Assembly (NCBI GenBank): GCA_951394045.1
Contig: OX595985.1
Location: forward strand, 5,332,001 to 5,396,000
Source of the DNA: Nitzschia sp. DOCU1
Taxonomy: Eukaryota; Bacillariophyta; Bacillariophyceae; Bacillariales; Bacillariaceae
Direction of reading: 5' to 3'
DNA length: 64,000 nucleotides
Shown here: piece after piece, positions 7,305 through 59,280 of the stretch
Layout of the letters: the number at the start of each line of letters is the position of its first letter
Position numbering within the stretch: the stretch's first letter is position 1
Notes under the pieces: model-generated
Database searches by the model: none
The model's input: only the letters and a program-made list of their open reading frames with translations
Told to the model about the DNA's origin: nothing
Made by a program: the position numbers and the translations under genes

Positions 7305-7953
7305 ATGCTGGGTGCCCAGCAGCCCCTTGTTACTCGTTGCTCGCGAGTTATGTCACGATTGTTGATCGCAAGAAAATTGTTGGACCCCATGCGCAGACTT
7401 TTGGTTGTAGTGCTTTTGCGATATGATTGGTCACAATATTGACGCAGCCACTTGGTCGTTTGAGTTGCAACTGATGCATCAGAAATGGCATGCAATGAGG
7501 GGAACATGAATTTGGCAATTTGTGCATTGCGTTCCGAGCGATACAGCCCATTCTCAGCTGCAAAAAAGCAAGCAAATGCATGGTAGAGGTCTGTCTCCAA
7601 GTCTGAATCCGGGGGATTGCTCCCAAAAGTAAGGGGTGTCTTCTTCAACACCTTGAGTTGACGCCACATGGTTTCAAAATGTTCAAAATTGGTGTCCCAC
7701 ACAAAGTCGTCGTACCATAGAAACTTGGGCTCGCCACCACAACCTACTCCATAGTAAGTCATCATAATGATGACTCACTTCTCAAAGTTCTGATTTGTTC
7801 TTGTTGCTTCCTTTATAATCATTGACATGATGGAGTGCAGGTCCCTTCCCTGCTTTGAACTCTAATTAGAATTGCTTCGTTCCTTGAAACGAACATACTC
7901 AGAGCGTACAACACGATACAGTGGTCGAGTATTTGCGTCCTGTGAGTCTGTGC
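7305..7953 (-). pseudogene. Tyrosine recombinase (Crypton-like), C-terminal part
   Basis: Continues the frame that starts at 14,965 once element E1 is removed (junction codons read FDKGTDSQDANTRPLYRVVR). The frame holds two in-frame stops, TAG at 7862-7864 and TGA at 7775-7777, but no frameshift. Features typical of a tyrosine recombinase core are a GVGCGGEPKFLWYDD block (the catalytic Arg is expected where Cys now stands in GCGGE), a KSLRMGSNN block resembling the H-x-x-R box, and an RGCW block. The frame then runs into the LTR at 7304, before the expected catalytic Tyr. The family assignment is by motif only. The gene is dead: two stops, a missing Arg and no C-terminus. Confidence 0.5.
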
Positions 7954-8153
7954 TGTCCGAATATGGATGTGGCGTGGGATCATATTGGTCAACTGCGCGC
8001 GGATGCGCAATGGTCATCGGAACAACGAAATCAAGGATACGTAAGCCGACAATGGCACAATTCGTTTTAGTCTTGGTCTATCAAGGGTTGTCTTTAGCTT
8101 TAGGTTATACTATCATCGATACGAAAGGAGTAAGTCACACGGAACTTCGCACA
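7954..8153 (+). repeat. 5' LTR of E1
   Basis: TGTCCGAATATGG...CTTCGCACA; identical by eye to 14,341-14,540 over all 200 bases. Confidence 0.95.
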
Positions 8154-8167
8154 GTTTATCAGACCCA
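8154..8167 (+). promoter_or_regulatory. Candidate primer-binding site of E1
   Basis: GTTTATCAGACCCA directly follows the 5' LTR, and the same 14 bases follow the LTR of the otherwise different element E3 (53,504-53,517). The reverse complement (TGGGTCTGATAAAC) can be drawn as an anticodon arm with loop CTGATAA, which fits priming by a 5' half-tRNA as in Drosophila copia. The tRNA was not identified. Confidence 0.65.
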
Positions 8168-8465
8168 CGTGGCTTTGGGAGATTCTGAAGGTAGTAAAGG
8201 AATCGGCTCGATTTTAACCGAGAAAAAGGGAATAAGGCAATAAGGAGAGTAGGCAACGCCAGGGACTGATCACCCCGTACGGCACCCGAGACGTCCATTA
8301 TCTGAGACGTAAAACTGCCTCGAGAGTGTGACCATTGTGTCAAATAATGCAACTCTTTGTGGGTAGGCTCGAGGAACAAAAAGGAAATAAGGAAAGGAAA
8401 ACTCGGGCTCCGGCCCAGTATTTATTTACTCACACATTACTCTTCGGAATAAAGAGCGGAAAAAC

Positions 8466-11400
8466 ATGGTTGGCTTTACCGTGGCTCAGGCTAATGCCTA
8501 CTTCACCGCCAATGGCGGTAACAACGTGGCCGACGTTGCTCGGCTACTTAACGATGTGCTTGGATTTAGTCGCTTGCAGGCTTACCAGGTCCATCGAGAG
8601 GGGATTGACAGTTTGGAGGACATGATTGGTTTCACCGAGAAGGAATGGAGTGAGATTGGCAACAACATGATTCCAAAACTTAACGCAATTGCCATCAAGA
8701 AGTTGCAGATTCTTGCCTTCTGGGTGCGCGATTTGAACTCTCGCGGTGCGGATTTGAATGCTGCTGATTTCACCCAGGAAGGTTATTCGGATGCCAAGAA
8801 CAGGTACCAACTTGCTAAACAGGAGAAGGAAGCTGGGATTGATGACTCCGAAATTAAAATGCCCGGTAAGCTCAAGGCGGATAAGTGGACTGACTGGGAG
8901 AAGGATTTTGTGAATCATCTAGAAAGCATCAGGGGCGCAAGCAACGTCCCCCTGTCTTATGTTATTCGGGATGACGAGGACCCAGAAAGGGACCCAACCA
9001 AGCCATTTTGGAGTGCATCTCTTGAGGGCAGAGCATTTAAAAAGGATGCAGAGGTGGTATTCCGCAAGATTATGCAGTGCGTCATTGGCACCGATGCGTA
9101 TCACTGGGTAAAAGGAAACGAAGGTAGGAAGGACGGCAGGATTACCATGAACGATCTTCGGGCCCATTACGACGGACCGGACATGAAGCAGCGCCGTATT
9201 GACCAAGCTCGCTACGCCATCGAGCACTTGCATTGGCGCAATGAGCAAAGCAAAAGTTTTGAATCGTACACTTCTGAATTGAAATCGGCCTTTGAAACCT
9301 TGAGGAAATACGGACGCCCCAAGACTGACGAGGAGCAGGTGGATATTCTGACGAAAGGGATCAACTCAAACGCCCCGGAAGTTAAGGCAACGATTGAACT
9401 CATCATGATGAATAGGGAAATGCGCACCAGTTTTGACAGGTGCAGTGCTACTCTCAGCGACACTCTTCGTCGTGCTCACCCCGCAATGTTTGACAGGGCT
9501 GGGGCGTACAGGCGTGGAGCTAACAGGAATATCTCGCAGACAAACAACGATAACCGTGGTGGCGGACGTGGTCGTGGTCGTGGAGGCAGAGATGGAAGAG
9601 GAGGCCGCGGTGGAGGTGGTCGCAATTCTTCTCACAGGATTCCAGGCGTTCCCAGATCGTATGCTGGGGTGGATCTAAGCGATCCTCACAGGTACATGAC
9701 AGAAGAAGAATGGTGGCTGTTGACCCCAGCCATCAGACATGCTATTACCAATGACCCCGACCGCGCTCAAGCGGTAGAGAGGCGCAAGGCTCAGAGGACC
9801 CAAGGAGGAAGAAATTACACAGGTGGCCGCGGAGGGCGCGGTGGCCGCGGTGGCAGAAATGTTTCCGCAGCCACTTCTGACAATACTTCAAGTGTATCTG
9901 CTGAAGCGATAGAACAGGCGGTAGCACGAGGTGTTATGGCTGCAAGCAGCGGACAGGATGTCGCCTCAGCGGCACCACCTGCAAACTCAGGCGCCCAGCC
10001 TCCATGGATGGGGCATGGGGCCTACTCAAGAAACACAAGCATGGTGAAAATCCTTAGTCGCATGACTGGGAAGACTCACAGTCACACCATCTTTGATTTC
10101 CCCATTGGGGAATTTCGCACAAATGAAATTGACAGTCGTTCTGACAATCACTGTTTCGGAAAGAATTTCAGGCCCCTCGAATATACCGGGGAAATCGTCG
10201 ATGTCTCACCCTTTAACCCAGGTTACGAACCCATTCGTGGCGTTCCCATGGTCACAGCTGCCACAGCAATTCAGCTTCCCGACACTGGCGAAACTGTTAT
10301 TCTCGTACTTCCACAGGGTTTAGGTTTCTGGACGTCTATGGAAAATTCACTAATTAACCCATATCAGTGGCGTGCTTTTGGGCACTCTGTTTGCGACGAC
10401 CCGACAGATCCTAACAGGCCATTGGGCGTCACGGCCATTGATGGCACTTTTATTCCGTTCAAAATGCGTGGGACAACTTGTTCTTTTGACAGTTTTTGTC
10501 CTTCTGACTCTGACCTTCGTGATTGTCGTCACATCCTTATGAACGACGATCTTTGGGATCCTTCTTCGGCCATTTTTGGGCTCTCGAAGGAGGAGGCAGA
10601 ATACGATCGTCTTGCATATGGAGTAAACGTTGGAGCCAAGGGACAAGACCCTGGCGATCTTACACTTTCACAAATTTCTTCAATTTATTCAGGTAAAACT
10701 ATGGTTCCTAAGTTGGTTTCGAAGGTTCAGATTGCTCGGACAGCGCAGGTTGAAGTCGCACCCATTGCGACAACTCGACACTCCCCCGTCAATCCCGAAA
10801 CACTGGCTCAGAAATGGAGGATCGGATTGGAGGCAGCCAAGAAAACACTTCAGGTGACAACGCAAGTCGGTATAAGAACAGCAGTCCATCCCCTTCAAAG
10901 ACGGTACCGCACAGACATTCTATCGGATTCCAGGAGGCGCTTACGCGCAAAGTTTTATTCGGATACAATGATCTCTAGCGTCAAATCGATCAGAGGTAAC
11001 AAGTATGCTCAGGTGTTCAGCGGTGAGGGATACGTCAAGGTCTGCCCTATGGCGTCGAAGGCGGAGGCTGGAATGGCATTGCAGGAATTTCTTGACGACG
11101 TTGGAGTACCAGAGATAATGACAGTTGATGGTGCTCTGGAGCAGGTGGCTCCGGGCAGTGATTTTACTAAAACTGCTCGGAAGGTAAGAATGATGTTGCG
11201 TCAAACAGAACCCCACTCTCCCTGGCAGAACCGATGCGAGCGAGATATCGGGACATTGAGGCGCAAATGGAAAAACAGAGCAACAGCTCTAGGAGTACCA
11301 AGGCGAGTTTGGGACTACGGCATGGTCTGGGAGGCGGAAATAATGTCACGAACGGCATCAGGTCGCGACGGTAGGACAGGCATTGAACGTCTCACCGGGG

Positions 11401-14228
11401 ACTCCATTGACATCTCGGAGTGGGTTGATTTCTCATTTTGGGACCGAGTTTGGTTTTGGGATCAACCTGGCGCGGATATTAACCCACAGCTCGGTAGGTT
11501 TGTGGGTGTCGCACACCGCATAGGTGGTGCACTTTGTGATTACGTCATGAGGGAAGATGGCGGAGTATTGGCTCGGACCACAGTCCAACATGTTACTGAG
11601 GAGGATTTCAGGAGCGACGATACTCGAAGACGAATTGACCGCTTTGACCAGAGGTTAAATGAATCACTCAGCGATGGCTTATATGTTGATAGGGACGAGG
11701 AAGGAAAGTTTGGTCAGCAGGATATTTTCATGGACGAACTTGAAGAACACGAGACGGTTCAGGCGGTCGAAGGCGAGGATATGCCCGGCATTGACGTGGA
11801 AGGACACGATATTGATTCACTGGATACGTTTATTGGCGCTGAGGTGATTTTGCCTGTTGGCAACGACTACGTTCGGGGGATCGTATCAAAAAGGGCAAAG
11901 GGACCTGACGGCAGGCCGGTCGGCACCTACAATCCTAACCCAATTTTAAACACCAGGGAATACGAGGTGCAGTTCCCCGATGGGACCACTTCTGAATACA
12001 CTGCAAACATAATCGCCGAAAATCTCTTTTCACAGGTTGACGACGAAGGCCATCAGTTCTTTTACCTCAGGGAAATTCTCGACCACAGGTCTGACGGCAG
12101 GGCCATCAAGAGGGACAATGGCTACGTTACATCGAAGAATGGGAATCAAGTTCCCAAGATTACGACGGCAGGCTGGGACCTACACGTCGAATGGAAGGAC
12201 GGGGCTACGACTTGGGTGGCTCTGAAGGATTTAAAGGAGTCCAACCCAGTCGAAGTCGCCGAGTATGCGGTAGGCAATGGCATCGCAGAGGAGCCCGCAT
12301 TTAAATGGTGGGTCTCTGACGTGTTACGTCGAAGAAATATAATCATCAAAAAGGTAAAAAGTAGATACTGGAGGACGACGCATAAATATGGGATCAAGCT
12401 CCCGCACTCGGTAAAGGAGGCACTTGCAATTGACAGGGAAACCGGCACAACGCATTGGCATGATGCCATCATGAAAGAGATGAAGAATGTTCGACCCGCA
12501 TTCCAAAGGAAGGATGATGTTACAATCGAGGAGGCAAGGTCCGGGAAGGCACTGGTAGGGTACCAGGAAATTGCATGTCACATGGTATTTGATATCAAAC
12601 TTGATGGGAAATTTACTCGAAAGGCGCGGCTTGTTGCTGGCGGTCACACAACTGAGACCCCGGCATCCATCACATATTCTTCTGTTGTTTCCAGGGACAG
12701 TGTGCGAATCGCTTTCCTTGTTGCAGCATTGAACAATTTGGAAATATTGGCGGCAGACATTGGTAACGCGTACCTAAATGCAAATTGCAGGGAGAAGATC
12801 TGGACTATCGCAGGGCCAGAGTTCGGGACGGACGAGGGCTCCGTCATGCTCATCGTGAAGGCTTTATACGGTACGGCGATGAATTTATTCAACAAGTTGC
12901 GTTTGCTATTCGCTTAACACTTTTATTCAGGATTAAAATCAAGCGGTGCGGCGTGGCGGAATCATCTCCGCTCAAGTTTGGTGGATTTGGGTTGGAAGGA
13001 CTCCAAGGCAGATCCGGACGTCTACATCAGGCCACAAGTGAAGCCCGATGGGACTAAATACTACGAGTACCTACTGGTATATGTGGACGATATTATGTGC
13101 ATATCACATGAACCCGAGGTAACGATGAAGGCTATTGCAGGTTTGTATCGTTTGAAAAACGATGAAGTTGCTCCACCGGACAGATATCTAGGAGCAAACG
13201 TTGGGAAATATCAGCTACCGGACGGTCGCCGGGTTTGGTCTATCTCCGCTAACGACTACGTAAAGAGTGCGGTGAAGAACCTCCGCGAAACTTTAAAATC
13301 AGAGGGACGGGACCTACCAATGAAGGATGCCGAAAGGCCGTTCCCGAAATCATATCGGCCAGAATTGGACGTGAGCCCAATGTTAGACGACGAGATGGCA
13401 AATCGGTATATGCATTTGATTGGAGTTTTGAGATGGGCTTGTGAACTTGGACGAATTGACATGCTGGCAGAAGTGGCATCATTGGCAACTCACCTTTGTG
13501 CTCCACGAATTGGACACTTGGAAACTGTTTACAAAATATTTGCTTATCTACAGAAACATGAGAGGTCAACGATGGTGTTCGACGACTTGCAAATTGAGAT
13601 TGACGAAAGCTTATTCGTACCGGTTGATTGGAAGGATTTTTATGATGTGGAAAGTGAGGAACTACCGCCAAACATGCCAACACCAAGGGGGAATACTGTT
13701 CGGATCGTGATCTATGTGGATGCTAACCATGCAGGAAATGTTCTAACAAGGCGGTCGCAGTCAGGGATATTGATATTTGTTAATAACGCGCCGATCATGT
13801 GGCTGTCAAAGAAACAAAATACAGTGGAAGCGGCAACCTTCGGGAGCGAATTCAACGCCATGCGCGTTGCGGTTGAGATGAATAAGGGATTACGCTACAA
13901 GTTGCGGATGTTTGGTATTCCAATTGAGGGACCGACAAGTATCTTTTGCGATAATGAGAGCGTGGTGAAGAATACATCTCTACCACACTCGACTCTACAG
14001 AAGAAGCATCACTCGATATCTTATCACTTTGTCAGGGAAGAGGCTGCTCGCGGCGCGATCAGGATTGCAAAGATCGATGGTAAACACAACCTTGCGGATT
14101 TGTTCACAAAGACAACTATTCCAACAGACGACCGAAAGAGGTTATTGCAGGAAGTATTATATTTCGGAAAGCCGACGAGTTCAGCGGAGGAGAGCGAGGA
14201 AAAGGACAAGAAGATTGGGACGGCGTAG
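8466..14228 (+). CDS. Gag-Pol polyprotein of E1, with one intron (8466-12870 joined to 12931-14228)
   Basis: The joined frame codes for 1,900 residues. N-terminus: SAM-like helical segment (residues 1-95), capsid-like region, then two RGG boxes (about 358-385 and 450-470) where a zinc knuckle would be expected. Protease motif EIDSRSDN near residue 560. Integrase with D in FYSDTM (near 830), D in TVDGAL (near 886) and E in NRCERDIG (near 922). Reverse transcriptase from about 1,310, with KALYGLKSSG across the splice junction and YVDDIMCIS as the catalytic box. RNase H from about 1,745 (YVDANHAGN, QSGI, FCDNESV). Without splicing, translation stops at 12915-12917 after KALYG. No frameshift or stop disrupts the spliced frame, so the element may be active. 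Confidence 0.9.
12871..12930 (+). other. 60-bp spliceosomal intron inside the reverse transcriptase domain of E1
   Basis: Begins GTACGG and ends TTTTATTCAG, with a CTTAAC branch-site match 15 bp before the acceptor and a pyrimidine-rich tail. It splits a Gly codon (phase 1); removal turns TAC-G and GA-TTA-AAA into the conserved YGLK motif. Its length is a multiple of three, and it contains an in-frame TAA (12915-12917). Elements E2 and E3 have no insertion at this point (KALYGLRTSG and KALYGLKSAG). Confidence 0.85.
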
Positions 14229-14340
14229 GTTTCCGCAACGTGGCGGTACCTCCTGGCATTGCGTCGAATACAAACCAGGTACTATTACCCAATTCGGAGG
14301 TTGATAGCTAGCTACTTCGGAGCTGCGCTATCAAAGGGAC

Positions 14341-14540
14341 TGTCCGAATATGGATGTGGCGTGGGATCATATTGGTCAACTGCGCGCGGATGCGCAATGG
14401 TCATCGGAACAACGAAATCAAGGATACGTAAGCCGACAATGGCACAATTCGTTTTAGTCTTGGTCTATCAAGGGTTGTCTTTAGCTTTAGGTTATACTAT
14501 CATCGATACGAAAGGAGTAAGTCACACGGAACTTCGCACA
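14341..14540 (+). repeat. 3' LTR of E1
   Basis: Identical to the 5' LTR; preceded by the purine tract at 14,333-14,340 and followed by the target copy GTGC. Confidence 0.95.
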
Positions 14541-14965
14541 GTGCCCTTGTCAAACTGACTTCGTTTTGCAATGTTTTGGAGCCGGTCCACAACGTCTTTG
14601 GACCATTCTTCATCATTCCAGGCCTCGTGACTTGGAAACTTTGCTTTGAGGGCCTCTCGTACATTCCCCCAGTACTTTGCCTTGGACGAGGCCTCCAAGA
14701 ATTTTCCACTTGTATTGTTCTGTAGAATCTTTGATTCAGCATACCACTCCCCAAATGATTCTAGAAGAAGAATTTGCATGTTATCAGCTTCGACGTATAC
14801 TTCAGTGATGTCATCCAGACGTGGGTCACCACGTTCCTCTTGGAATCGATTGAAGGATGCGATGCCAGAATTACGCAGAGCCTTGGTTGCTGCCTTTGCA
14901 CGACCAAACATCGTCTTGCGTAGGCTAACACCACTGTTCGTTGCAAGGTTGAGCTGAGTAGACAT
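14541..14965 (-). pseudogene. Tyrosine recombinase (Crypton-like), N-terminal part
   Basis: Starts at the ATG 14963-14965 and runs 140 codons to the E1 insertion. It is helical, with blocks ESFGEWYAESKIL, SSKAKYWGNVREALK and NDEEWSKDV, as expected for the DNA-binding N-terminal domain of a Crypton-type recombinase. The frame continues without shift at 7953 on the other side of E1. This half has no internal stop, whereas the second half has two. Recombinase assignment rests on the C-terminal half. Confidence 0.5.
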
Positions 14966-16219: not shown

Positions 16220-16618
16220 TGACAAGAATCCGTAGGGACTCTGAGAAATGCGACGGCAAACGCGACGACAATCAACAGATGTGGCGGCGCTTGCTCAACA
16301 ATGCTGACGATTCTCCACGTTCGACGCAGGAGAACCAACAACAACTACAACTATGCCTCTCTACGCTAGAGGCGCTCGGTATACTTAGCTTTTGGGGGTA
16401 AATGGGTGACAACACGGTCACGTAAGTGATTCCTATATTGTGAGTTATCTACGTCTGCCGCCGACGGCGGTCACTCATCTTCGAGCATCATTCCTCGTTG
16501 TCATGCGCGCCTGCGCGCGTCGTCCGACCACTCGGAGCGAAAGACTAACTTGACTAACACACTACTGACGTCATGCGCGGACCGTCCGTCCGTCGCTCGT
16601 CTACCTTATTTTCTATCA
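16220..16618 (-). repeat. 3' LTR of E2
   Basis: TGATAGAAAA...TTGTCA on the minus strand; five differences from the 5' LTR (clusters near 16243-16250 and 16312-16319). Confidence 0.92.
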
Positions 16619-19245
16619 CTCCCCTCTTTCGCGCTCGGGGTGGTGCCCTCCTTTCCGTCTTCCTCCAAATCCTCTTCCTCTTCTTCTTCTCCCTCAAATT
16701 CTACTTCTCCCATATTGGCGACGTCACCAGCGAAGAACATAAGTGGCTTGAGCTGTGCCCAGATCTGCTGGTATCCCCAATGCTTTGAGAGGATGTCAGC
16801 GGGGTTCTCTGGCCCAGGCATGTGGTAAAAGCCAACTATGCCCGCTGCAATAGCCTCGCGAACGCGATGGAAGCTAAGTGCAGTGTGCCGCTTATGTAAC
16901 TTGGCATGGGGCTTAGCAGAGCTGTTCACCACTGACTCGTTGTCACCGAACATGTAGCTCTTACCAAGGATTGGGACACCTAAATAACGCAGCGTGTTAC
17001 GTAGGTCCATTACTTGTTCTACACATGTTCTCGCGGCAACGAACTCCGATCCGTAGGTCGCTGTCTCGACGGTCGCCTGGCGTTTGGAGAACCAGTCGAT
17101 CGGAGTGGCGTTAAGGAAGTGGAGTATCCCAGTGACCGAACGACCAGTTAGCATGTCGTGGTACAAGTTCGCGTCTACATAGTGGGACAATAGTACGTAG
17201 TTCCCGAGGGGGTCGGGGGCGTCGTAGGGGATCATCTCTTCGATGTCTCCGTAGACGGACGTCGTCCAATCGTACTCTACCTCTGGTATTCCTGAGTAGT
17301 CGGGCATATGTGTGCGGATACGGATGCACGCGTCGGACATGTTCGCGAGGTACGCGACGACACGCTTCGCCCTATCCAAATGCCCGATCCGAGGAAGCGC
17401 ATGGAAGCGCGACAGGGTCATAACGGCCGTCGTAACGTCGATGCGTCCGAGGGACACGGCCCACTGTAGAGAACCTACGACAGACTGGTAGTCTTTAGTT
17501 TCCTTATCGTTACATAGGCGCGTAGTGTCGAGCTCCGGATGGTCATTCTTCTTCTCAAGCGGGGAACGTACACGACGCTTCGGCATGTGCCCGAAGAGGT
17601 CCTTGTACGTGTCAACCATACGCGAGATGTACTTCTTGGGCTTGAGGCACAGTATGCCATCGGAATCGCGGACAAAATCGCATCCAAGGTGAAAACTTAT
17701 GGGCCCGGTTCCCTTCAACTTGAACTTGTAGGTCTCCATTAGTCGTTCAGTGAAGGACTTAGGGTCCAGCATCGCCATCGTGAGGTCGTCTACATATACT
17801 CCTATGTACTCGTAGACGTCACCGTTCTTCCGCATCCATATGTCCGGTTCCGCCTTACATGGAAAGAACCCTTCGTTTCGGAGACACTCGGCGAATCTTT
17901 CGTGCCATCGTAATCCGCTGGTCCTGAGTCCATATAAGGCCTTCTTGATGACCAATATATGCCCTTCAACTTCGGGCCCGAATTCGGGTCCCGCTAGAAT
18001 ACAGACACGTTCTTTGGTCTTGGCCTCTAAGTAAGCATGACCTATGTCAGTAGCCCAAAGTTGAAGTCCGTTGAGTTCGGAGAGAAACGTGATCATACGA
18101 ATCCCTCTCAACGAAACCACTCCAGAGTACACACTATCCACAGGTATGTCCGTCAGGTGTCCGTCGGCGACGAGCCGGGCCTTGTGCCGTCCGTCGTGCT
18201 TCACGTCGAAGACGAGATGTACACGAATCTTCTTATAACCGGTCGGTACGATCCTACCTACGTCCTGGAAGGTCTGGTATTCGTCCAACTGTGCGAGCTC
18301 TAATTTAGTAGCGTCTGCCCACTTCGAGTTCCGGTTCATCTTGTCGAGCCAGACGGCTTCCTTGTAGTTCCGTGGGATCTGGAATCCGTACTTATACTTA
18401 GGGGCGTTGTTGAACGAACGGAGTTTCGCCTGATTCGCCATGCGGTAGAGCTTCTTCTGCCGCTTGGCGAGGTTGCGGAAACGCTTCCAACCGGGTAACT
18501 CTAGTAGGTTATTCTTAATACCGTACTCTACTAGGGGAATCGGGTCGTCCGCAGCCATCGTCGTAAGGGGTTCGCTAGTGATCTCCCCGTTCTCCCATTC
18601 GACCATGACGTTGTACATAGAGCCCTTGTACCTTGGGTCGCTCGCGGTGAGAGGTCCCTCGTGCGATACAATACCCTTGTACTTCCAGAGAACATTCCCT
18701 TCGAGCTCTCGCTCAATGTGCGAAATGACCTGGTCATACGTCATCAGCTCCTCCTTTTCTGATTGGCCGATGCGAAGCTTGAACATGACCGGCTTCTGCT
18801 GTTCGTGCTCGAGGTCGTAGTGATGGCGGTCGATGGAGTCGACGACTTCGGTGACGGTCGCCCGATGGACCTCCCCGTTCTCGTCCTTGTCGAGCAGGAA
18901 CGACCGTCCGATAAAGTCCGTGTAGTCGATAAGTGACAGGGACGGCTTCGCGGCGTCGACCTCGACGGTGTGGCCGTCGTCAGTGCCACGGTCGGACTCA
19001 TCCGACCTAGATCTAACTACTTGCTCTGGTCCCCTAGCCGCGTCGTCGGCGCGTATATTGGGGGCTAGAGGGTCTTCAGCAGATCTAACTAAGGATCTAT
19101 CAATTACCTTTAGAGTATCGTCCGTTAGTATACGATACGTCATGGCGTGTCCTACATTGTCCGCGATTCCCACGAATCGTCCACGGGCCTCCCGGCTCTC
19201 GGACGGGAAGGCAGGCTCGTTCACGGCATAGTAGACGGGCTCGTA
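16606..19245 (-). pseudogene. Reverse transcriptase-RNase H part of E2 Pol
   Basis: Follows directly, in the same frame, on the TAA that ends the upstream frame (19246-19248): the text reads SPLLRFR-stop-YEPVYYAVNEPAFPSES, a conserved copia linker. The first in-frame ATG is over 100 bases downstream (about 19,141), so this is not a separately started gene. Reverse transcriptase shows KALYGLRTSG and the catalytic IGVYVDDLTM; RNase H shows SHYVDANLYHDM, RQATVETATYGSEF and MFGDNESVV. The frame ends GSDRK-stop inside the 3' LTR. Apart from the single stop it is intact, so it is expressed only if the TAA is read through; otherwise the copy is defective. Confidence 0.85.
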
Positions 19246-22200
19246 TTAGCGGAAGCGCAGGAGCGGGCTAATGTCAGGGGTGACTCCTGTGAGCAGGCGC
19301 ATCGGGATGTTCCAGCCGTGCCCCTTACACGCCGTGTGGTTGAGGACGAAGCAGACATACGTGAGCGCCAGTAGCCAACAGTACGCCGGCGCGCCGGTCC
19401 TGTCCAATACCGTGTTGGTCAGCCGCTTGACGGTTTGGTACCTACGCTCGGCCGCGTTCTGCTGCTGCTGGTGCGGTTCGCTCTGCCAGTCCTGCATGCA
19501 TACGGCTCTAAGTATGTCTTTAACGCCCTGACTAGTCTCTAAGTTAGCTGAGTCACTAATCAGTTTGGTCGGCGCGCCGCGAATACGGATGATGTCCGCG
19601 AGAACCTTCTTGAACTGTCGTTCGTTGCGAAGCGGGAACACATCACATACGCCCGTGTGAACGCCGACGAAGAACTGTGCCTGTGTGGCGCCATTATCAA
19701 CAGCTGGCGTGTCGGAGTAGACAGTGTCCGTTGCCACTGGTTCTTCGCGTCTACGTACATTCAAAGCGGGGAACGGAGATTTAAAAGTACGCTTTAAATG
19801 TGTACCTACCGGCATTCGGGCATACTGGGTTGAGTTCCGGAAGGTATGTTTAACGACCTCGGAAGGCAACCAAGCGAAGAGGGGCCTTTTGCTCTCATAG
19901 TCGGGTTCTTCGGGCTTCACAGCGCGACCACCGGACTTATTGACTTCAACGTCTGGGTCGCCAGTGCCCGGGTGCGGGGATTTCGCGGCTTCGGGTTCGG
20001 GATCCCCAGGGTTCTCGGAGTCGTCGAAAGGTTCATGTGTATCGACGTACATGAGATGGTCTGGAAGAGGTGCCTTGTCTATGACGGTGTAGTCACGGTA
20101 GAGGTTGGCTGCCGATACTACATAACGGTTGGAGAACTCCCGTAGCAGGGCGTCCTCGTGGAGTATAGCAGTTGAGATAACGTAATAGTCTTCATCTACG
20201 TAGTTACCATACTCGTCGAAACCGTCGTGGATGGCATGCTCGGCCGCCGTTGACTTCACACATGGACGCGTGTCGTCCGGGTCCTCCCCGTCATCGTCTA
20301 GGACGGTGGGGTCCCAGTCGACGTCACTAGTCATGATAACATGTGGGAGCGTGGCCAGCTCGGTATCACTGGGCGGGCGCAGGTGGACGTACGGCAGACC
20401 GTTGTGTAGACTAATCGGAATGGCGTATCCATCTACAGTAGTAATACGTTGCTTGATACCAGAAACTTTAGAGGACTTATCGTCTACCTGTTGCTTGTAG
20501 GCCTCCATCTGTACGGCGGACAGAATACTAGGTCCTCTGTTGATGTGCGCGTACTGATGGAAGATACCTATGACCTCCCCGTCGGTGGTACTAAGGACAC
20601 CAGCGGCGGTAACTACAGGTATGTCGACTAGTTGGTGCTTACCCATGCCTTCTACCTTGACAGATCGGTACGGCTGTATGTGTATGACGCGCATGTCATT
20701 CCCTGCTATGCCGCCATTAGCACCGCGGTCGACCAGTGCTTGTCCGTTGGTCTTCCGTTGAACCTTAGAAACAGTATAGGTAATCTCGCAAGTAATAACC
20801 TTACGACTACTATTACTAGGGCGTGCCTTGCTTGGGGACATCATGTTAGCGAGGTTGGCAGGCGACTTCGGCTTCTTCTGTTGGATAGACATAGCCGTTA
20901 CCATGTCGTCAGTCTGCTCGTCTTCCGCTGCCGCAATATCATCAGTATCATCATCGCTCCCCGTATTGCTAGGCGGATACGACGAGGCATACATGGCGGT
21001 GCGCGGGGTGGGCGGGCGGGACGCGCGCCCTGGGGTACGACTGGACCCGGACCCACGACTCGCGGCTGATTGGTTGGCGATAATCACCTCCTTGTCAGCG
21101 TCTGTCAGTGTGTCCCATGCGCGCTGTCCGTCGGGCGAAAGTGCGTGCCACGTGGAAGCCTGGAGGCGCGCCTGGTAGGCCTGATAACGCTGGAGCTCAG
21201 TAATCAGAGTGTTGATCGAGACCTTAAAGGCCTCGAAGGCAGGCGCGTCGTCGGCGACGTCGTAGACCTCCCCGTAGATAGGCTCGGGGTCGTCGTAGGC
21301 GACATCCGTGGCGTAGACGCGTGCAGTACGACGCTTGCCGGCGGCGCGGTGTCCGTGCGTGGCACGTTCCTGGTCATACTGCTCACAGGCGGCGAGCAGG
21401 AGCTGATTAAGGCGTGGTACGCCCTCTACGGCGCACTGGAGCAGGTTGACGGCGAGGTGTTCGGGCATGCGCATGTCGAGCGGCGAGAGACGCTGGTAGT
21501 CCTCGTAGCGAGCGTGCCAGTACAGGACGAACGTGTGCGTGGTATCGGGCCAATCAGCAGTCAGCCTGGTGGCTGATAACCATTTCATCAGCGCATTGGC
21601 CTGCTTGCGTGCCGCGACAGACGTGGTCGCTTCCTTCTTCAAGTCTAGGTACAGAAGGCGGGCGGAGGAACGTTCGCCATACTTAGTAATTAGGGTTCTA
21701 CCATAATTAGTAAGTACACAGTTATTCAGTACAGCCATGACGTAGACCTCTTGCTCCTTGAAGAGTGCACGGTCTTCGTCAGTGACAGGGCGGATATGGT
21801 CACGGTCATCCGCGATGACGTTGTAAACGCCTTGGGCCCGGGCATGTATCTGCATCTGCCGGTCCCAGTCTTGGAAGTTCTCTACTAGCTTCAACTTAGG
21901 GTACACGTTCATGCCACGCTTCATGCCACGCTGAAAGTTAACTACGGAGGCGTAATATGCGCGGGCACGTGCATTCGAGTCATTTGGAGGGTGCATCGCC
22001 CTCTGTGCCATCTCGTGTGCATTGTTACCCCAATAAACGTAAGCGGGGGAAGCAAGCCAGTCCCCGTACTCGAGTGGGGGCGTCGCCAGCCAGGCGGCGT
22101 TAGTCATGTGTGCACCGTCGGCCATCTTGTGGACGGCAAAACCCTTCGCTCGCATTAAGCGATTAATATCAACGAGCTTAGGTAAGTGTACAACCCCATT

Positions 22201-22545
22201 CCCGTCGATGAAGGACAGGTTCGCAAAGTCGTTTCTGCATAGGGCGAACAGGTCGGCGAGGGAACAGATGCCCTGTTCCTCGAGTGCACGGTACACCCAA
22301 TGGTTAGGCTTAATTCCGATAATACCCATGACGTGGTCATACGCCGCTCGGCTGCGCGACGTGACGTTGGGATGATGCGGTGACGTGGTACTGGGTGCAG
22401 TGCTGCTGGCGCTACGTGGCGTTCCAGCGGGGCTGACGTCGGTGTCGATGCCCACCTGCATACCAGTGAATGACGTCTCAATCCCGGATGGGTCCTCCAA
22501 CTGGAGCTGCAACGAAGCCATGCCGGCGGTGGAATCGTCAGTCAT
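19246..22545 (-). CDS. Gag-protease-integrase frame of E2
   Basis: 1,099 residues from the ATG at 22545. Order: helical SAM-like segment (about 65-130), capsid-like region (about 190-420), protease box ALVDRGANGGIAGND (near 620), integrase with D in VYSDTP (near 905), D in LISDSAN (near 955) and E in QNAAERRYQ (near 990). Gag lacks both a zinc knuckle and the RGG boxes of E1 and E3. It ends at TAA 19246-19248 within the integrase-reverse transcriptase linker. Confidence 0.88.
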   Translation of the reverse strand: MTDDSTAGMASLQLQLEDPSGIETSFTGMQVGIDTDVSPAGTPRSASSTAPSTTSPHHPNVTSRSRAAYDHVMGIIGIKPNHWVYRALEEQGICSLADLFALCRNDFANLSFIDGNGVVHLPKLVDINRLMRAKGFAVHKMADGAHMTNAAWLATPPLEYGDWLASPAYVYWGNNAHEMAQRAMHPPNDSNARARAYYASVVNFQRGMKRGMNVYPKLKLVENFQDWDRQMQIHARAQGVYNVIADDRDHIRPVTDEDRALFKEQEVYVMAVLNNCVLTNYGRTLITKYGERSSARLLYLDLKKEATTSVAARKQANALMKWLSATRLTADWPDTTHTFVLYWHARYEDYQRLSPLDMRMPEHLAVNLLQCAVEGVPRLNQLLLAACEQYDQERATHGHRAAGKRRTARVYATDVAYDDPEPIYGEVYDVADDAPAFEAFKVSINTLITELQRYQAYQARLQASTWHALSPDGQRAWDTLTDADKEVIIANQSAASRGSGSSRTPGRASRPPTPRTAMYASSYPPSNTGSDDDTDDIAAAEDEQTDDMVTAMSIQQKKPKSPANLANMMSPSKARPSNSSRKVITCEITYTVSKVQRKTNGQALVDRGANGGIAGNDMRVIHIQPYRSVKVEGMGKHQLVDIPVVTAAGVLSTTDGEVIGIFHQYAHINRGPSILSAVQMEAYKQQVDDKSSKVSGIKQRITTVDGYAIPISLHNGLPYVHLRPPSDTELATLPHVIMTSDVDWDPTVLDDDGEDPDDTRPCVKSTAAEHAIHDGFDEYGNYVDEDYYVISTAILHEDALLREFSNRYVVSAANLYRDYTVIDKAPLPDHLMYVDTHEPFDDSENPGDPEPEAAKSPHPGTGDPDVEVNKSGGRAVKPEEPDYESKRPLFAWLPSEVVKHTFRNSTQYARMPVGTHLKRTFKSPFPALNVRRREEPVATDTVYSDTPAVDNGATQAQFFVGVHTGVCDVFPLRNERQFKKVLADIIRIRGAPTKLISDSANLETSQGVKDILRAVCMQDWQSEPHQQQQNAAERRYQTVKRLTNTVLDRTGAPAYCWLLALTYVCFVLNHTACKGHGWNIPMRLLTGVTPDISPLLRFR

Positions 22546-23735
22546 AATGACTCTTTAGATTTATAGCTTTCTAGAGAACAGGTTCGAAGAGAGAACACTA
22601 GGAACTCTCACCAGATAAAAGTGTTATAGCGCAGTAACCCGGACGTTGAACGGGTTCGGATTACGCACTTAAGGAGAAAGAGCTGATTAAATCAGGCCTT
22701 ATCACTCTCACAACCTCAGTAAGACGCACTGAAACTGTATACCAATGACGACACGTCACCTGAAGCAAACGAAAGGCCTTGCCGAACGATACGGCAAGCT
22801 CGAATCAGGTACTTCGGACAGAAGGGTGTCCTACTCCGTGCACTGTCCGGCAATTGGTTTGAGATAGGGCTTTATAAGCACACTCTTATCCGTACCGTAG
22901 TACAAGAGCTGGCAGTACGTCGCCCACTGGCCTATCAACCAACGCAGTTTAGCGCGAATATTTAGAACCGCCTCTAAAACAGCGAGCAGCTATCTGTCCT
23001 GCGCTGAGTGGCTGCCGATGTTACGTCGGGCTTTAGTCACGAGGCACGCTGCTTTGCCAGGCAGATCGCTCTCCACTGTGACCCTCTTACCACAGCCAGG
23101 ATACACTCTCCAATGTATACACTGAGCGCGTGGACGCTGTCGTCCCTGTCTAGTGTACACTCACACAAGAGAATGTACAGTCGACTAGGGGGTTTTATAA
23201 AGGAGGTTCCTTCTCCCGGTATGGACCGCACTGTGTAACGTACTGTCGTAAGGCAAGCAATCCAAATGCCACTCGGGGCTTGGGCCTGCACGTTCAGTAC
23301 GGTACCAGTATGCAGGCTACTAATACCTGATGCCACTTTGTTTAACGAGCTCTTCTCGAATCGGTGTGGTGCGCCTTCGAGCTCGGCCGTCCGTCGGCAG
23401 GTGGGAGAGAGTTGTTTCGCGGGTGTGCGGTTCGCGCGGCTACTCTATACTACAGTCGACAGACAAGCCGACAACACAGCAACCAACCGAAGTTTCGGCG
23501 AATCGGACAAAAGGGGCCTAACAACGCGTAAAAGCGCGGGAAAAGCAGTACTGGTAGGGAACCTACGGCGCCCTACGCAATCAACAAACCAGGAAAACAC
23601 GCCGTCGACGACGACGACGATGACGATCGGGGGGGCTCCGGCGACGGGGCTCAGGTGGACTGATACAGGGCGTACCAGTCACAGGTAACAAACGATAAAC
23701 GCAGTCTCAGCGGGGCGAAACTGCGACTGTTAATC
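22546..23735 (-). other. Long leader of E2, with a conserved upstream ORF
   Basis: 1,190 bp between 5' LTR and Gag. It contains a sense-strand ORF of 99 codons (23336-23037, MASGISSLHTGTVLNV...) that is also present in the truncated copy (6505-6206) with one amino-acid change. Because the two leaders are nearly identical DNA, this conservation does not prove coding. Antisense frames also occur. The leader could hold packaging or translation signals. Confidence 0.5.
23722..23735 (-). promoter_or_regulatory. Primer-binding site of E2, matching a tRNA-Asn anticodon arm
   Basis: The 14 plus-strand bases TGCGACTGTTAATC, directly inside the 5' LTR, have the sequence of the 5' side and loop of the anticodon arm of eukaryotic tRNA-Asn(GUU): loop CTGTTAA flanked by GA and TC. 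As the minus strand is the RNA strand, the element RNA is complementary to a 5' half-tRNA, as described for Drosophila copia with initiator tRNA-Met. The same bases are present at 6890-6903. Confidence 0.75.
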
Positions 23736-30575: not shown

Positions 30576-31737
30576 TTATTGTGTCGTGTTAATGTGACCA
30601 CAACGTATCACTCGAAGGCACGTTCGTCTGATGCGATTCCATTCTTCTGCCATTTCATGGCCAATATGAAGTAGTGCTTCTGCATCTAATGGTTGTTGGC
30701 GCCGTCCTCTGGAGCGTGCTCTCAATTTCCAAATACTCTCGAATGTCTGTCTATTTCTTTTGCTTGTAAACCCAATCACAAATGCATAGACGGCCCATGG
30801 TTGAAGAAATCGTTGCTTTGTCACAGCTGAACCGCCATCTCCGCTGTTATGTTGAGTTAACCGGTGACGAATATTTTTGGTCTCACCAATGTACATCACA
30901 TTAATATCCCTTGTGGAAATCAGTTCATAAACAACACCATGATTTTCTGGTGGTAATTGAGCATCACAAGGGCGGAACATGCAAGGATTTTGGGGAATTG
31001 GTAGACTGTCATTTTCACTGGTAAGTTGAGACAAAAGCTGACGAATGTAAGGTAGAAATCGATTTGTTCTTTGGAGCACTTGCAATAAATGTTCTGACAC
31101 TTCAGATGGATCTCCAACGAAGTAAATATCTTTTGCTTTTCGCGTTCGACTCAACAGTACCACTACTTGCGCAGCTTCCCAAAGATTGTAGTCATATCCA
31201 TCATCTTTATTTGTGACCTGAGTGACAACGGAAGATATGGTTGAACCCATACTGGAATGAATCGTAGCAGCAATTCTGGGTTTCAATCCATATTGTGTTC
31301 GTCTGGCTTGGACACCTCGGAATACAGTTTCGTTTTGTGATGTTGTGTAAGAAACTTGGACTTTTTTCCAGCCTCTTTCGGTTAGACCATTTTCATTGAA
31401 AAAATCTATCGAAGGAAAATCCTTACATCCAGGAGGTCCAGCCCAGACACTTATAGGTTCCTTGCTGTGAATGTGCTCCTCTTCCAATTCCAATAAAATA
31501 GCCAATTGACCCTGTTGGAAGTTCCTATCATTGTGGCAAAATTCAAAGCGTGCATTTTTGTAAAAAACAAGCTGTTTTTTTCTTTTCTGCTGTCTTGAAA
31601 GCTTTCGAACAATTGGAAGAGCAGCTGGGTGCCAATTTCCACCTGTGGTTGACTCTTCATCTGTTGCTAGAGATATAACAAGAGGAATTGACATGCGGCG
31701 AAGCTGCTCAAGCATTTACTTTTCCACTTGAAGACAA
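30576..31737 (-). pseudogene. Helitron helicase C-terminus fused to a GIY-YIG nuclease domain
   Basis: 379 codons from 31715, preceded in frame by TAA (31716-31718) and by seven codons that continue the helicase frame across the E4 insertion. Residues 145-200 contain the late PIF1 helicase motifs (AATIHSSMGSTISSV and VVVLLSRTRKAKD). Residues 260-330 form a GIY-YIG domain: VVYELIS, MYIGETKNIRHRLTQHNSG, then PWAVYAFVIGF and the metal-binding Glu in QTFESIWK. The tail is Arg-rich. GIY-YIG domains cut DNA in UvrC, Slx1, homing endonucleases and Penelope-like elements. The frame from 31715 to 30576 is intact; the helicase upstream is broken. Confidence 0.75.
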
Positions 31738-33838: not shown

Positions 33839-36800
33839 ATGAAAACTCACTTCACTGACTACTTTGTGCGCTGGCACAAATTGCTTTGGTCGGTCCTGCC
33901 TGGCCGCCCTGCCCCAACACGGTGTCGTCGTGGCTATCGCTCTGGAATTCGCCGTCCTCGCCCCGTCTCTTCGGCATGTTATCACCGCCCGACCGATATC
34001 CCTATCCTACCTGAATCTTTTGCCCCCGGTCGGACCGTTCCATTATCGGTCGCTCGATCCACTCGTGCCCTCTTAAGCACTCTGATCGATCAGGATCACA
34101 TGGCTCTTCTGAGCCTGACCTCTGACGATGTCCCTGTTGTCCTCGATTCGGGCGCTACAATCGCTATTGGGATCGACAAATCGGATTTTGTCGGCGATAT
34201 CATGCCTTGCCCGATGGCGGAATTAAAAGGCATCGGCAGCGGCCTTGCTGTCAAAGGCATCGGGACCGTCAAATGGAGTTTCCGTGATGTCGATGGCAAT
34301 GTTTGAAACGTCCATTTACGCGCATTGTTTGTTCCGGATTGTCCTGTGCGCCTGCTTCCACCCCAGCAGTTATCCAATGATCCTCACGGATGCTCTGCCA
34401 ATGGGGCCTGGATCGGATCTGGCGACTAGGCTTTGGTATTTTACAATGGCCACTGCCTGCCATTTGCCTACGATATGGCATCAAATTTGCCTATTTGCAA
34501 GACGATCCCTGGCGTTTCCAGATTCCGGGCATTCCTAAGTGGTTTATCCTCGCCGGCCACTACTGATGATGTTGCCTTGGACCCCACGATGGCCTCCCTT
34601 TTCGGCTCGACCCTTTCTGATGATCAGCGTCTGCTTTTGGACTATCATCGGCGATATGGTCACATCGGCATGAGTCGCATCCAGGAATGGGCCCGTGCTG
34701 GTTTATTCCAGATTCCAAAGCGGGTTTCGAAATGTAAAATCCCTGCTTGCCCCGGTTGCCATTTTGGTGGCATGTATCGCCGACCCCACTCTCATGACAT
34801 CGGGAGTACAACCATACCAGTGGCGGCCCCCGGTGATTTTGTGGCGGTCGATCAGATGGAATCGGCATTGGGTGGTCGCATTCCCTTCACTCGTGGCCGC
34901 CCCTCCAAACGTCGATACAAATGCAGCACCGTCTTCGTAGATGCTTTCTCCAAATTTGCAAAGTCGTGTCTTCAGGAATCAACTGCGGCGGATCCGACTG
35001 TCGCGAGTAAATTGTCCTTTGAAGCTGATTGTCGGCAACATGACGTCCACGTCCGGCACTACCGTGCTGATAATGGAGTTTTTACCAGCAAGAAATTCCG
35101 AGACGCTGTGGCCTCTGCCGGCCAATCCATGTCATTCAGCGGGATTGGCGCACATTTTCAGAATGGTGTCGCCGAGCGATATATTGGGGTGTTCACCCGC
35201 ACTGCTCGGATCCTGTTATTGGAGGCAATGTCAAGATTTCCCGGAGTGGTGGACGAGTCCTTCTGGAGCTTCGCCTTCCAGCACGCTGTCCTGTTACACA
35301 ACCACACCCCACGCTATAAGTCAAGCGGTGCCGGTTATGACACCCCTTTCGAGAAATTCACGACGACTGACAGTCCATACGATGTTGCCAGCTTCCACCC
35401 TTTCGGATGTCCCGTTTTTGTTTTACACCCCTCTCTGGCAGATGGTCAGCCACATCCAAAATGGAAGGAGCGGTGCTATCAGGGAATTTACGTTGGCCAT
35501 TCCTCAGAGCACGCTTCGAATGTACCCTTGGTGTACAACCCAAGGACTGAGTTGGTCAGTCCAGCCTACCACGTGGTGTTCGACGATGATTTCCACTCGG
35601 CTGGTTTATTGTCAAATAAGGAAGATCCCACGGCCATTATTGAGGCCATCGGCCGTCTCCTTGCTTCCCCTGAGAATCGATGGAAGCACAAGGACCAGTT
35701 CTCCGTCCTCCCTGACGAGAATATCAATCGGCGGTACATTGATCACGCTGCCAGCGCTACGAGGGAGATGTTGTTTGAGCATCATCGCCACGCTGCAGCT
35801 GCGTTGGCTTCGGCAAAACGGGGTTTATTGTCGTCGACGGCTCCACCCCCAAAACGTCTGCGCACTGACACCCATGATACACCTGCAAGTTTGGCACCCG
35901 AGGGAGTTTCTGTCGGAGCCACTGCGCCCCCACTCATCGGGCCCGATCGGATCCTTGCGCTAATCCGATCTTTGGGGTACTCTCTGCCGCCAGGTGTGGC
36001 TTTCATCGCCAACTCTGCGAGTGGTTCCATTGTCGAACCCGCATCCCTCGACTCCGCTTCCTTATCCCCTGATGATTGGGCTGGTATTGCTCATGCTGCT
36101 CTTGACTGCTCACCGATTGACGGTAGCCTAAATCTAGACAGTCTGCACGCATGCATTGTGAGCGCCAATCCTGACGTTCTGACACAGGGTGAAATGTTCA
36201 AGGCGGCTGATTGTCATGAATTTCTTCGTTCGCAGGTTGATGAAATCGAGACCCTGGAGCGAGAACGCGTCTGGAATGTAATTCCCCGTTCGGACCTTCC
36301 TCCCTCAGCACGGCCTCTGAACGCCGTCTGGTCGTACCGACGCAAGCGCCGCCCCGACGGGAGTCTTCTGAAATATAAGAGCCGAATTTGCGCGGATGGA
36401 AGCATGCAGGAGCAAAACCGTGATTTCACGGAGACCTACGCTCCTGTCGTGCAATGGAGCACGGTCAGGCTGGTCCTCGTTTACGCTGCGATGCTCGGCC
36501 TGGTTAATTGTCAGGTTGACTTCGCTCAAGCTTTTACGCAAGCGGACATTGATACCGACGTTTTCCTGGCGGTTCCTCAAGGTTGGTATTATGACTCTAC
36601 GTCCGGCCGACTCCTGCAGCACTCTGACCCGAAATTCCGAGACCAAGAACACTGTCTCCACTTGATCAAGAACCTCTACGGTACAAGGCAAGGAGCCCGC
36701 AACTGGTTTATTTCCCTTCGGGACATCCTACTCTCTGAGGAATTCGGCTTTCAACAATCAAAAGTCGATCCCTGTCTTTTCATCCGTCACGATTGCCTCC

Positions 36801-37894
36801 TGACGTTGTACACGGATGATTGTTGCATGTTCGGCGCCACACAGGACGTTCTCGACAACCTCAAAGCTACTCTTTCCAGGCGCTTTGTGCTTCGCGACGA
36901 AGGCTCCGTGCAAGATTTCCTTGGCGTCCGCATCCGTCCTGCCCCTGAATTCGGCGAATATGCCTTCGAGATGACCCAGCCCGGTCTCATTGACCAGATC
37001 CTTGCCGATATCGGCCTGTCTCCAGTAGATGATGAGTCCGGTCCCCGCTCGACCAGTGCGAGCAATGCCAAATTCGTCCCCGCAGCAAAAGAACCCCTTC
37101 GGACCAACCCCGACGCCGCACCGTTCGATGCCCCCTGGTCTTATCGGTCGATCATTGGAAAGTTGAATTTCCTTGCAGCGAACACTCGGCCCGACATCTC
37201 ATACGCCGTTCATTCCGCTGCTCGCTTCAACAACGCCCCAAACAAGGATTGCCAGCTCTATGTCAAATACCTCGGCCGGTACCTGCTTGGGACTCGGACG
37301 AAAGGCCTCTTCTTCATCCCCAACATGCTCCATCAACTGACAGCCCATGCTGATGCTGACTTCTGCGGTTTGTTTTCTGCCAAGACGAGTCATTTGCGCG
37401 AGGCCTCCCTTTCACGCAGCGGGTTCATTGTTGCGTATGCTGGTTGCCCTATTTTGTGGAAAAGTGCCCTCCAGACAATTGTTGCCTTGAGCACTTGCGA
37501 GGCCGAATATGTTTCCCTCTCCGATTGCATTCGGTCCCTGCTGCCACTATGCCGGATTCTTGATGAGCTCGCGGCCTTTCAACCCCATCCTGGCACAGGC
37601 TCATCCGACATGACGGTCCGCAACAAACACATTGCTTCTGTTCGTGACGGGCAGCTTGCATCCATCGTTTGGGAAGACAACATCGGTGCCCTCGAGATCG
37701 CAAACCAGGAGCAACAATACCGCCCCCGAACCAAGCACATCGCCATTCGGTACCACCACTTTTGAGACCATGTGGCAGACGGCACGCTGTGTGTCAAAAA
37801 GATTGACACCAAAGAACAGATTGCGGACATTTTCACCAAGCCCCTGCCCCAAGAGACCTTCGTGCACCTTCGGAAGAAATTGAGTGGTTGGTAG
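33839..37894 (+). pseudogene. Pol of E4 with three in-frame stops
   Basis: A single frame of 1,351 codons from the ATG at 33839, with no frameshift but stops at 34304-34306 (TGA), 34427-34429 (TAG) and 37763-37765 (TGA). Protease VVLDSGATIAIG (near residue 105); integrase with a GHIGMSRIQEW zinc-domain region, catalytic D in AVDQME and E in NGVAERYIG; reverse transcriptase with VDFAQAFTQADIDTDV, KNLYGTRQGARNW and LYTDDCCMFG; RNase H with STCEAEYVSLSD and IVWEDNIGALEIA. The last stop replaces the residue in the copia C-terminal motif HHF-R-DHV, where Arg is expected (CGA to TGA). The C-terminus continues DIFTKPLPQ...LSGW. Confidence 0.88.
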
Positions 37895-58500: not shown

Positions 58501-59280
58501 CTACTCAACGACGAAGGTGCTACTTTTTATATGCAATGCGTGGGAATTTTACGTTGGATTGTGGAGCTCGGTCGCATCGATATTTGTGCCGAGACGTCGA
58601 TGTTGGCTGCGTACAATGCGTGTCCAAGGGATGGCCACCTGAAGGCAGCCCTCCATGTTTTTGCCTATTTGAATAATCATGAGCGATCTAATCTTGTGAT
58701 GGATGATGGGTATCCGGACCACTTGCCGGATTTACCGAAGCACGAATGGAAGGAATTTTATCCATGGGCGAGCGATGACTGGCCGCCTGACGCTCCAACT
58801 CCCCTTGGAAAACCCGTGGTAATTGTTATGTTTGTTGATGCTTCTCATGCTGCTAACGTTGTGACTCGTCAGTCAAGAACAGGTGTTTTGATTTGGGTTA
58901 ATCGTGCCCCTATCGTTTGGTATTCGAAAAAGCAGAATTCTATTGAGACGAGTTCTTTTGGCTCGGAGTTTATGGCGTTGAAGACAGGCGTTGAGCTTTT
59001 GGAAGCCCTACGTTACAAACTACGAATGCTGGGCGTGTCAATCGATGGCTATGCTCATGTTCTTGTTGATAATATGTCGGTTGTTTGCAATACGAGCGTG
59101 CCCGAATCGACGTTGAAGAAAAAGTCGAATTCAATTGCTTATCACTACGTGCGATCAAAAGCGGCGGCTGATATCCTACGAATCGGTTATGTTAATACGA
59201 AGGCGAATCTTGCCGATATGCTGACTAAGGTTCAGAATGGAGCGGAGCGAAAGGAGCTTGCAAGACAGGTGTTGTTCTAA
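55548..59280 (+). pseudogene. Pol of E3, in frame with Gag behind one TGA, with two frameshifts
   Basis: Directly behind the Gag stop the same frame codes for the protease (SRCELDSHADTCAFS, near 55,625-55,670) and the integrase start (SKMFVDVL). A one-base slip near 56,530 moves to the frame with GNTCMAVYSTPFQW, DSALSLTK and QSQAENAIREV. A second slip at 57,255-57,268, in a TTTT run, leads to the reverse transcriptase (KALYGLKSAGFSW, YTDDLLAIS) and RNase H (FVDASHAANVVTRQSRTG, LVDNMSVV), which are intact to 59280. An ATG at 55740 could start Pol separately but lies downstream of the protease motif. With identical LTRs, the breaks are young, copied or sequence errors. Confidence 0.8.

Follow-up and report, generated by a model that had tools for sequence, protein, structure and literature searches.

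How can a retrotransposon keep an intron in the core of its own replication gene, when a spliced RNA would lose that intron at the next copying? The question was raised by the initial annotation of a 64,000-nucleotide stretch of Nitzschia sp. DNA (the window, from whose first base positions are numbered below), in which 60 bases within the reverse transcriptase (RT) of a copia element were assigned to a spliceosomal intron.

The interrupted reverse transcriptase and its splice signals

The insertion lies within a 6,587-bp LTR element on the plus strand (7954-14540). The 5' LTR (7954-8153, TGT...ACA) and the 3' LTR (14341-14540) are each 200 bp long and differ at 0 of 200 positions, and the pair is flanked by the 4-bp target-site duplication GTGC (7950-7953 on the left, matched by 14541-14544 on the right). 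A polypurine-tract-like sequence, ATCAAAGGGAC (14330-14340), stands directly 5' of the 3' LTR. The reading frame is open over 8391-12917 (1508 codons) and resumes at 12918 without a change of frame, continuing to 14228; the sole stop separating the two is the TAA (12915-12917) of a branch-like CTTAAC (12913-12918), which would be the in-frame stop of an unspliced RNA. Exon 1 (8466-12870), starting at the first ATG of the frame, was assigned by position and similarity to Gag, protease, integrase, and the 5' part of RT, these names following in part the usual copia order. Exon 2 (12931-14228, stop codon at 14226-14228) holds the remaining RT with its YVDD box (13080-13091) and a region that is presumably RNase H, named from motifs only.

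The RVT_2 domain (PF07727) matched the end of exon 1 and the start of exon 2 at 30.9 and 19.4 bits, each below the cutoff of 31.6 bits, the domain being divided by the intron. It was the only domain matched in the search of the two exons, and neither a zinc knuckle, a protease site, nor an integrase zinc finger was picked up in the element by short patterns. Exon 1 aligned at 49% identity across 933 residues with P0055, which is a relative bearing rve and RVT_2 domains, and the integrase call was made only through similarity to this rve-bearing relative. With its LTR pair, target duplication, and RVT_2-type RT after the integrase, the element has the makeup of a copia-order LTR retrotransposon; the Ty3/gypsy RT of Ogre-type elements was not among the matches, only copia-type RVT_2 being listed for both exons.

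The putative intron (12871-12930, phase 1) begins GTACGG and ends TTTTATTCAG (3' end TTCAG), with junctions reading ...TTTATACG/GTACGG...CTTAACACTTTTATTCAG/GATTAAAATCAAGC. These coordinates and the CTTAAC within them are exactly those given in the initial annotation, according to which removal of the 60 bases restores a conserved motif. Among GT...AG pairs within 12843-12962 (length a multiple of three, with 28 nt or more separating the dinucleotides), two left no stop when removed, and 12871-12930 was the only one of these to yield ALYGLKSSG. No unusual RNA fold was found in or around the intron (z-scores of +1.26, 0.07, and -0.12), and an Rfam search of the whole window returned no match.

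Splice signals were compared with those of nine host introns, which were deduced from reading frames and family matches and of which eight are paralogous, from a single gene family. The 52-Mb genome (63 contigs) contained 18 matches to the silicon transporter family (PF03842), which in themselves make a diatom the probable host. Silicon transporter introns (n = 8) were 78 to 94 nt long, began with GTAAGCT in seven cases and GTATGAT in one, and ended in CAG, with the nearest CTNAC 18 to 27 nt before the end. The ninth host intron, in a TCP-1 gene, was 80 nt long, with a donor, GTACGT, whose first five bases are the same as those of the window intron. The element introns, those of the sister subfamily described below included, thus appear to resemble host introns in their signals, though they are shorter than all nine.

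Genomic copies and the origin of the intron

As the initial annotation had proposed, the genome was searched for copies with and without the intron. With a 601-base query spanning the site, the DNA search returned 22 rows: 8 copies of a subfamily A (the window copy included, 96 to 100% identical), 12 site-spanning copies of a subfamily B (about 71 to 75% identical), of which one, L020, takes two rows, and 1 copy consisting of exon 2 only (L021). A 60-nt insert was present in all eight A copies, the window's among them, and chance can be excluded as the source of the match in the window, because every copy found of the subfamily has, at this position, an insert of identical length and identical ends. 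In subfamily B, 11 of the 12 copies carried a 66-nt insert (GTGAGAGAG...CTAAC...AAG) at a site 7 nt downstream of that in A. Insert length was invariant inside each subfamily. All 19 intron-bearing copies had GT-AG ends, with a branch-like CTTAAC (two copies) or TTTAAC (six copies) in A and CTAAC in B; in-frame stops numbered one in A (8/8 copies) and two in B (11/11 copies). The introns had GC contents of 36.7 and 34.8%, versus 48.7 to 52.3% for their flanks. The outcome that the initial annotation had named as speaking against an intron, a random insertion lacking splice signals in related copies, did not occur.

Only L020 had both exons and no insert, giving 19 copies with the intron and 1 without. 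L020 (C15:989500-999400) reads GGTTTACGGTCGTCC, which is the B exons joined exactly, with no base extra or missing. It is without exactly the 66 bases at the predicted B junction, and its frame is continuous for 1,902 codons; the 1,900-residue Gag-Pol that the initial annotation had reconstructed by removing the intron thus has a natural counterpart. The intron-less state was sought among the eight A copies and found in none, so that precise removal restoring the exon is known in B from natural absence and in A from comparison with the conserved motif only. On either side of the site, L020 was 98.1 to 98.3% identical to L009 and L010 and 82 to 90% identical to other B copies. These three formed one group whichever side was used for the tree (support, 0.999 and 1.000); within it, L009 and L010 were the closer pair with modest support (0.762 and 0.852), and with A as the outgroup the trio nests inside B. 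The L020 LTRs (200 and 199 nt) are one gap apart and are flanked by a target duplication of their own, TCGC. A single loss is simpler than repeated gain, because the other 11 B copies bear recognizably the same intron.

The simplest account of L020 would be a reverse-transcribed spliced RNA. Possibly the locus was instead converted later by such a cDNA, and a spliced RNA would be needed in that case too. L020 apparently serves as a natural test of splicing. The observation that L020 is exactly 66 bp shorter than L011 (6,574 versus 6,640 bp) was dropped as an argument, since other intron-bearing B copies measure 6,642, 6,636, 6,547, and 6,211 bp.

The distribution of the intron among copia relatives was examined by pairing exon 1 and exon 2 protein hits by position (best 150 of 215 and best 150 of 186 candidates, respectively). 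Among the matches listed, the gap between the exon matches was 61 to 72 nt in 19 of the 20 A and B copies and 3 nt in L020. The matches listed included 130 other copia hits, for which pairing succeeded in 112 cases and failed in 18; the gap was 3 to 11 nt in 109 pairs, and larger gaps at C14:70073 and C11:1858897 were accounted for by a second match starting later. Apart from C9:212575, the insertion was absent at this site in 111 of the 112 paired relatives among these matches. At C9 (212575-212922 and 212003-212443, both minus strand), a gap of 131 nt extends beyond the missing residues, and either insertion or decay could explain it.

Two related elements in the window, described earlier as being without the insertion, do read through the site unbroken, with ALYGLRTSG (17605-18249, minus strand) and ALYGLKSAG (57607-58518, plus strand). 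A third RVT_2 match (36269-37018, plus strand) contains no stop; the motif pattern did not match there, and it was left out of the comparison. A copia element at 16606-22554 (minus strand) has a frame that one stop splits into 879 and 1102 codons and is probably a nonsense-mutated copy, relatives elsewhere in the genome being open for 2050 codons. Elsewhere in the window, a frame at 30579-31715 (minus strand) carries a GIY-YIG endonuclease domain (PF01541; E = 6e-11).

Among public proteins (the best 120 of each search), 293 of the 319 relatives listed had the motif unbroken and flanked by sequence on either side, another 8 had it near the start, and 18 fell outside the motif pattern. A product stopped in such an intron was sought, and none of the motif-bearing listed proteins ended 30 residues or fewer after the motif. 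Trees were built from 11 genome copies and 147 (exon 1) or 210 (exon 2) outside proteins, leaving out the genome's more distant copia copies, whose identity in exon 1 reaches 62% at most. Subfamilies A and B formed one group to the exclusion of the outside set, with support of 0.994 and 0.997; the next branch was P0006 in one tree and P0122 in the other, both intron-less. The intron was thus most likely gained in the line leading to A and B. No outside protein of the same family spanning the junction was found among the best 120, the closest spanning proteins being P0122 (77%) and P0006 (72%). One protein of 403 residues from another public source, P0121, begins after the motif, so that it carries no information on the intron, and is 99% identical to exon 2; it therefore represents the same family sequenced elsewhere.

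The A and B introns, 7 nt apart, are in phase 1 and phase 2, respectively. A single gain followed by a 7-nt shift is preferred here, since sister subfamilies are unlikely to have gained introns twice within 7 nt. Such a shift would have turned the 3'-terminal bases of exon 1 into intron and those of the intron into exon 2, and the letters can be laid out in this way. Independent gains at a favored site are unlikely but a serious contender, given that the alignment of the two introns has no clear advantage over shuffles that keep the splice signals: the observed score was reached by 47 to 499 of 1000 shuffles, and by 238 to 651 in the shifted register. Synonymous sites are, however, saturated between A and B, so that a loss of similarity between the introns is expected even from a common origin. 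Two gains would also be a coincidence within a single well-supported group whose nearest listed outside relatives are intron-less, in a genome where at least 111 of 112 paired other copia copies have no insertion here, with 1 ambiguous.

Retention of the intron through copying

Eight intron-bearing copies retained paired LTRs, with 0 to 2 differences over 186 to 200 positions, and matching 4-bp flanks that were all different: GTGC for the window copy, CGCA for L023, TGCG for L025, ATTC for L010, CAGC for L011, AAGC for L012, AATT for L013, and TCAG for L016. L027 has an LTR pair whose flanks do not match, and no pair was recovered for L022, L026, L009, L014, L015, L017, L018, or L019. L024 holds two intron-bearing copies, rearranged. 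L023 and L024 (C1:3150400-3179600), about 20 kb apart, have the same 3' flank, CGCAAGAG; some local duplication or recombination has therefore taken place. Eight intron-bearing insertions with LTR pairs and distinct duplications argue that the usual template of reverse transcription was unspliced RNA. The DNA thus records retention in at least eight separate insertions versus one loss.

Selection on the exons was estimated within subfamilies only, in view of the synonymous saturation between A and B. Broken-frame rows were dropped (upstream of the intron, L026, L027, L009, and L018; downstream, L023, L024, L026, and L018), and the second copy of L024 was excluded from both sets. Between intron-bearing B groups (L011 versus L010, L016, and L017), dN/dS was 0.020 to 0.031 upstream and 0.017 to 0.025 downstream of the intron. 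For the window copy versus L025, it was 0.075 upstream and 0.066 downstream. Several copies are dead, but in intron-bearing lineages the protein sequence encoded after the stop has been conserved. The B intron itself may be under some constraint, with no length change in 11 copies and a larger invariant share (39 of 66 positions in 11 copies) than third codon positions (190 of 380 in 10 copies); p-distances between B introns were 0.11 to 0.26 in four comparisons, in three of which downstream dS was 0.24 to 0.68.

Three other explanations for the intron-bearing copies were weighed against these data. It is improbable that they are defective passengers moved by RT from intron-less copies, of which L020, intact across the site with its long open frame, would be an example. 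Between intron-bearing B groups, strong purifying selection acts downstream of the stop (dN/dS, 0.017 to 0.025), and of the 20 copies that have both exons a single one lacks the intron, its position in the trees being inside a set of intron-bearing copies with near-identical LTRs. Still less probable is translation of the 60 bases with ribosomal readthrough of the stop, by which a single Gag-Pol with 20 extra residues would be made. Intron lengths of 60 and 66 nt are both multiples of three, as in a translated insertion, and A has only one in-frame stop to be passed; B, however, has two in each of its 11 intron-bearing copies, the insert splits a motif that 293 of the 319 relatives listed keep intact, and the ends are GT-AG in 19/19 copies, with exactly that stretch absent from L020. 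Spread of the copies as DNA by segmental duplication, which would make an unspliced template unnecessary and which the flank common to L023 and L024 recalls, is scarcely credible for eight intron-bearing copies that each have their own 4-bp duplication and LTRs at 0 to 2 differences.

Two predicted RNAs and known spliced elements

The anatomy of the intron, its retention, its one nested and exact absence, and the selection acting on both exons are features of the DNA itself, and the spliceosomal assignment of the initial annotation is supported by the exact absence in the sister subfamily, the host-like signals, and purifying selection both 5' and 3' of the stop. The reading preferred here, and very probably the correct one, is that of a spliceosomal intron of a copia-order LTR element with two RNA forms, the unspliced RNA being the usual template and the spliced RNA the source of full Gag-Pol. 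Unspliced RNA would be reverse transcribed, and the intron would so be inherited; its translation would terminate at the intronic stop, short of the YVDD box, giving Gag, protease, and integrase and no RT active site. Spliced RNA would give full Gag-Pol with RT and RNase H and would occasionally be copied, producing an intron-less element. Splicing would be partial, the two RNAs would have separate roles, and the ratio of Gag to RT would result from both. Compared with the host CAG/GTAAGCT...CAG, the donor of A (ACG/GTACGG) and the acceptor of B (AATAAG or AACAAG) appear weak, and such sites could leave much of the RNA unspliced. Frequent intron retention does occur in diatoms; in Phaeodactylum tricornutum, it is described as prominent (PMC5859163). 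The paradox with which the locus was first presented would thus be answered by integrated copies that derive mostly from unspliced RNA, with one intron-less copy beside them. It is possible, as a tentative extension, that splicing is an evolved switch, set by an intron ahead of the catalytic YVDD box, through which RT would come only from spliced RNA, which would not be the normal template, and that this switch predates the split between A and B, whose synonymous sites are saturated, despite the 7-nt move of the intron.

LTR elements with splicing are already known, including Ogre, BARE1, EVADE, copia, and others (PMC3735527, PMC12786077). Ogre, a Ty3/gypsy element of plants, is described as an LTR element with an intron that is spliced in transcripts (PMC12786077, PMC3735527), as that of the window element would be; it is spliced between ORFs (PMC3735527), whereas the window element is of the copia order and has its intron inside the RT domain. 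For BARE1, a copia element of barley, splicing is described as creating a stop just after Gag, so that the spliced RNA encodes Gag only (PMC3735527, PMC12786077). The window element would reverse this arrangement, splicing removing the stop and completing Gag-Pol. EVADE (copia, Arabidopsis) and Drosophila copia are reported to use a separate spliced RNA that raises Gag over Pol (PMC12786077, PMC3735527); there the spliced form is a short Gag message, whereas in the window element it is the unspliced form that would end early.

The CoDi copia elements of diatoms, compared here by description, mostly have LTR pairs more than 95% identical, with a 4-bp target duplication given for one insertion (PMC2806351); neither "intron" nor "splic" occurs in the available text of that source on CoDi. 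Penelope-like elements are reported to keep introns on transposition, but they are retroelements of a different class; the mechanism suggested for them is self-priming, perhaps also with an antisense template (PMC3846280). Among the titles and opening parts of abstracts listed, a set that mostly did not cover subscription papers, no intron inside a diatom copia RT was described. What is new is the place of the intron, its retention beside a natural spliced copy, and its 7-nt difference in position between sister subfamilies.

In the classic yeast experiment, as it is recounted in PMC12786077, an intron was put into a retrotransposon and its loss was the proof of an RNA intermediate. Here, one natural family presents both outcomes, with many retentions and one exact loss, and so provides DNA-only evidence that the RNA usually copied differs from the RNA that makes the polymerase. 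The sister subfamilies A and B also offer a case in which to test whether the position of an intron can shift.
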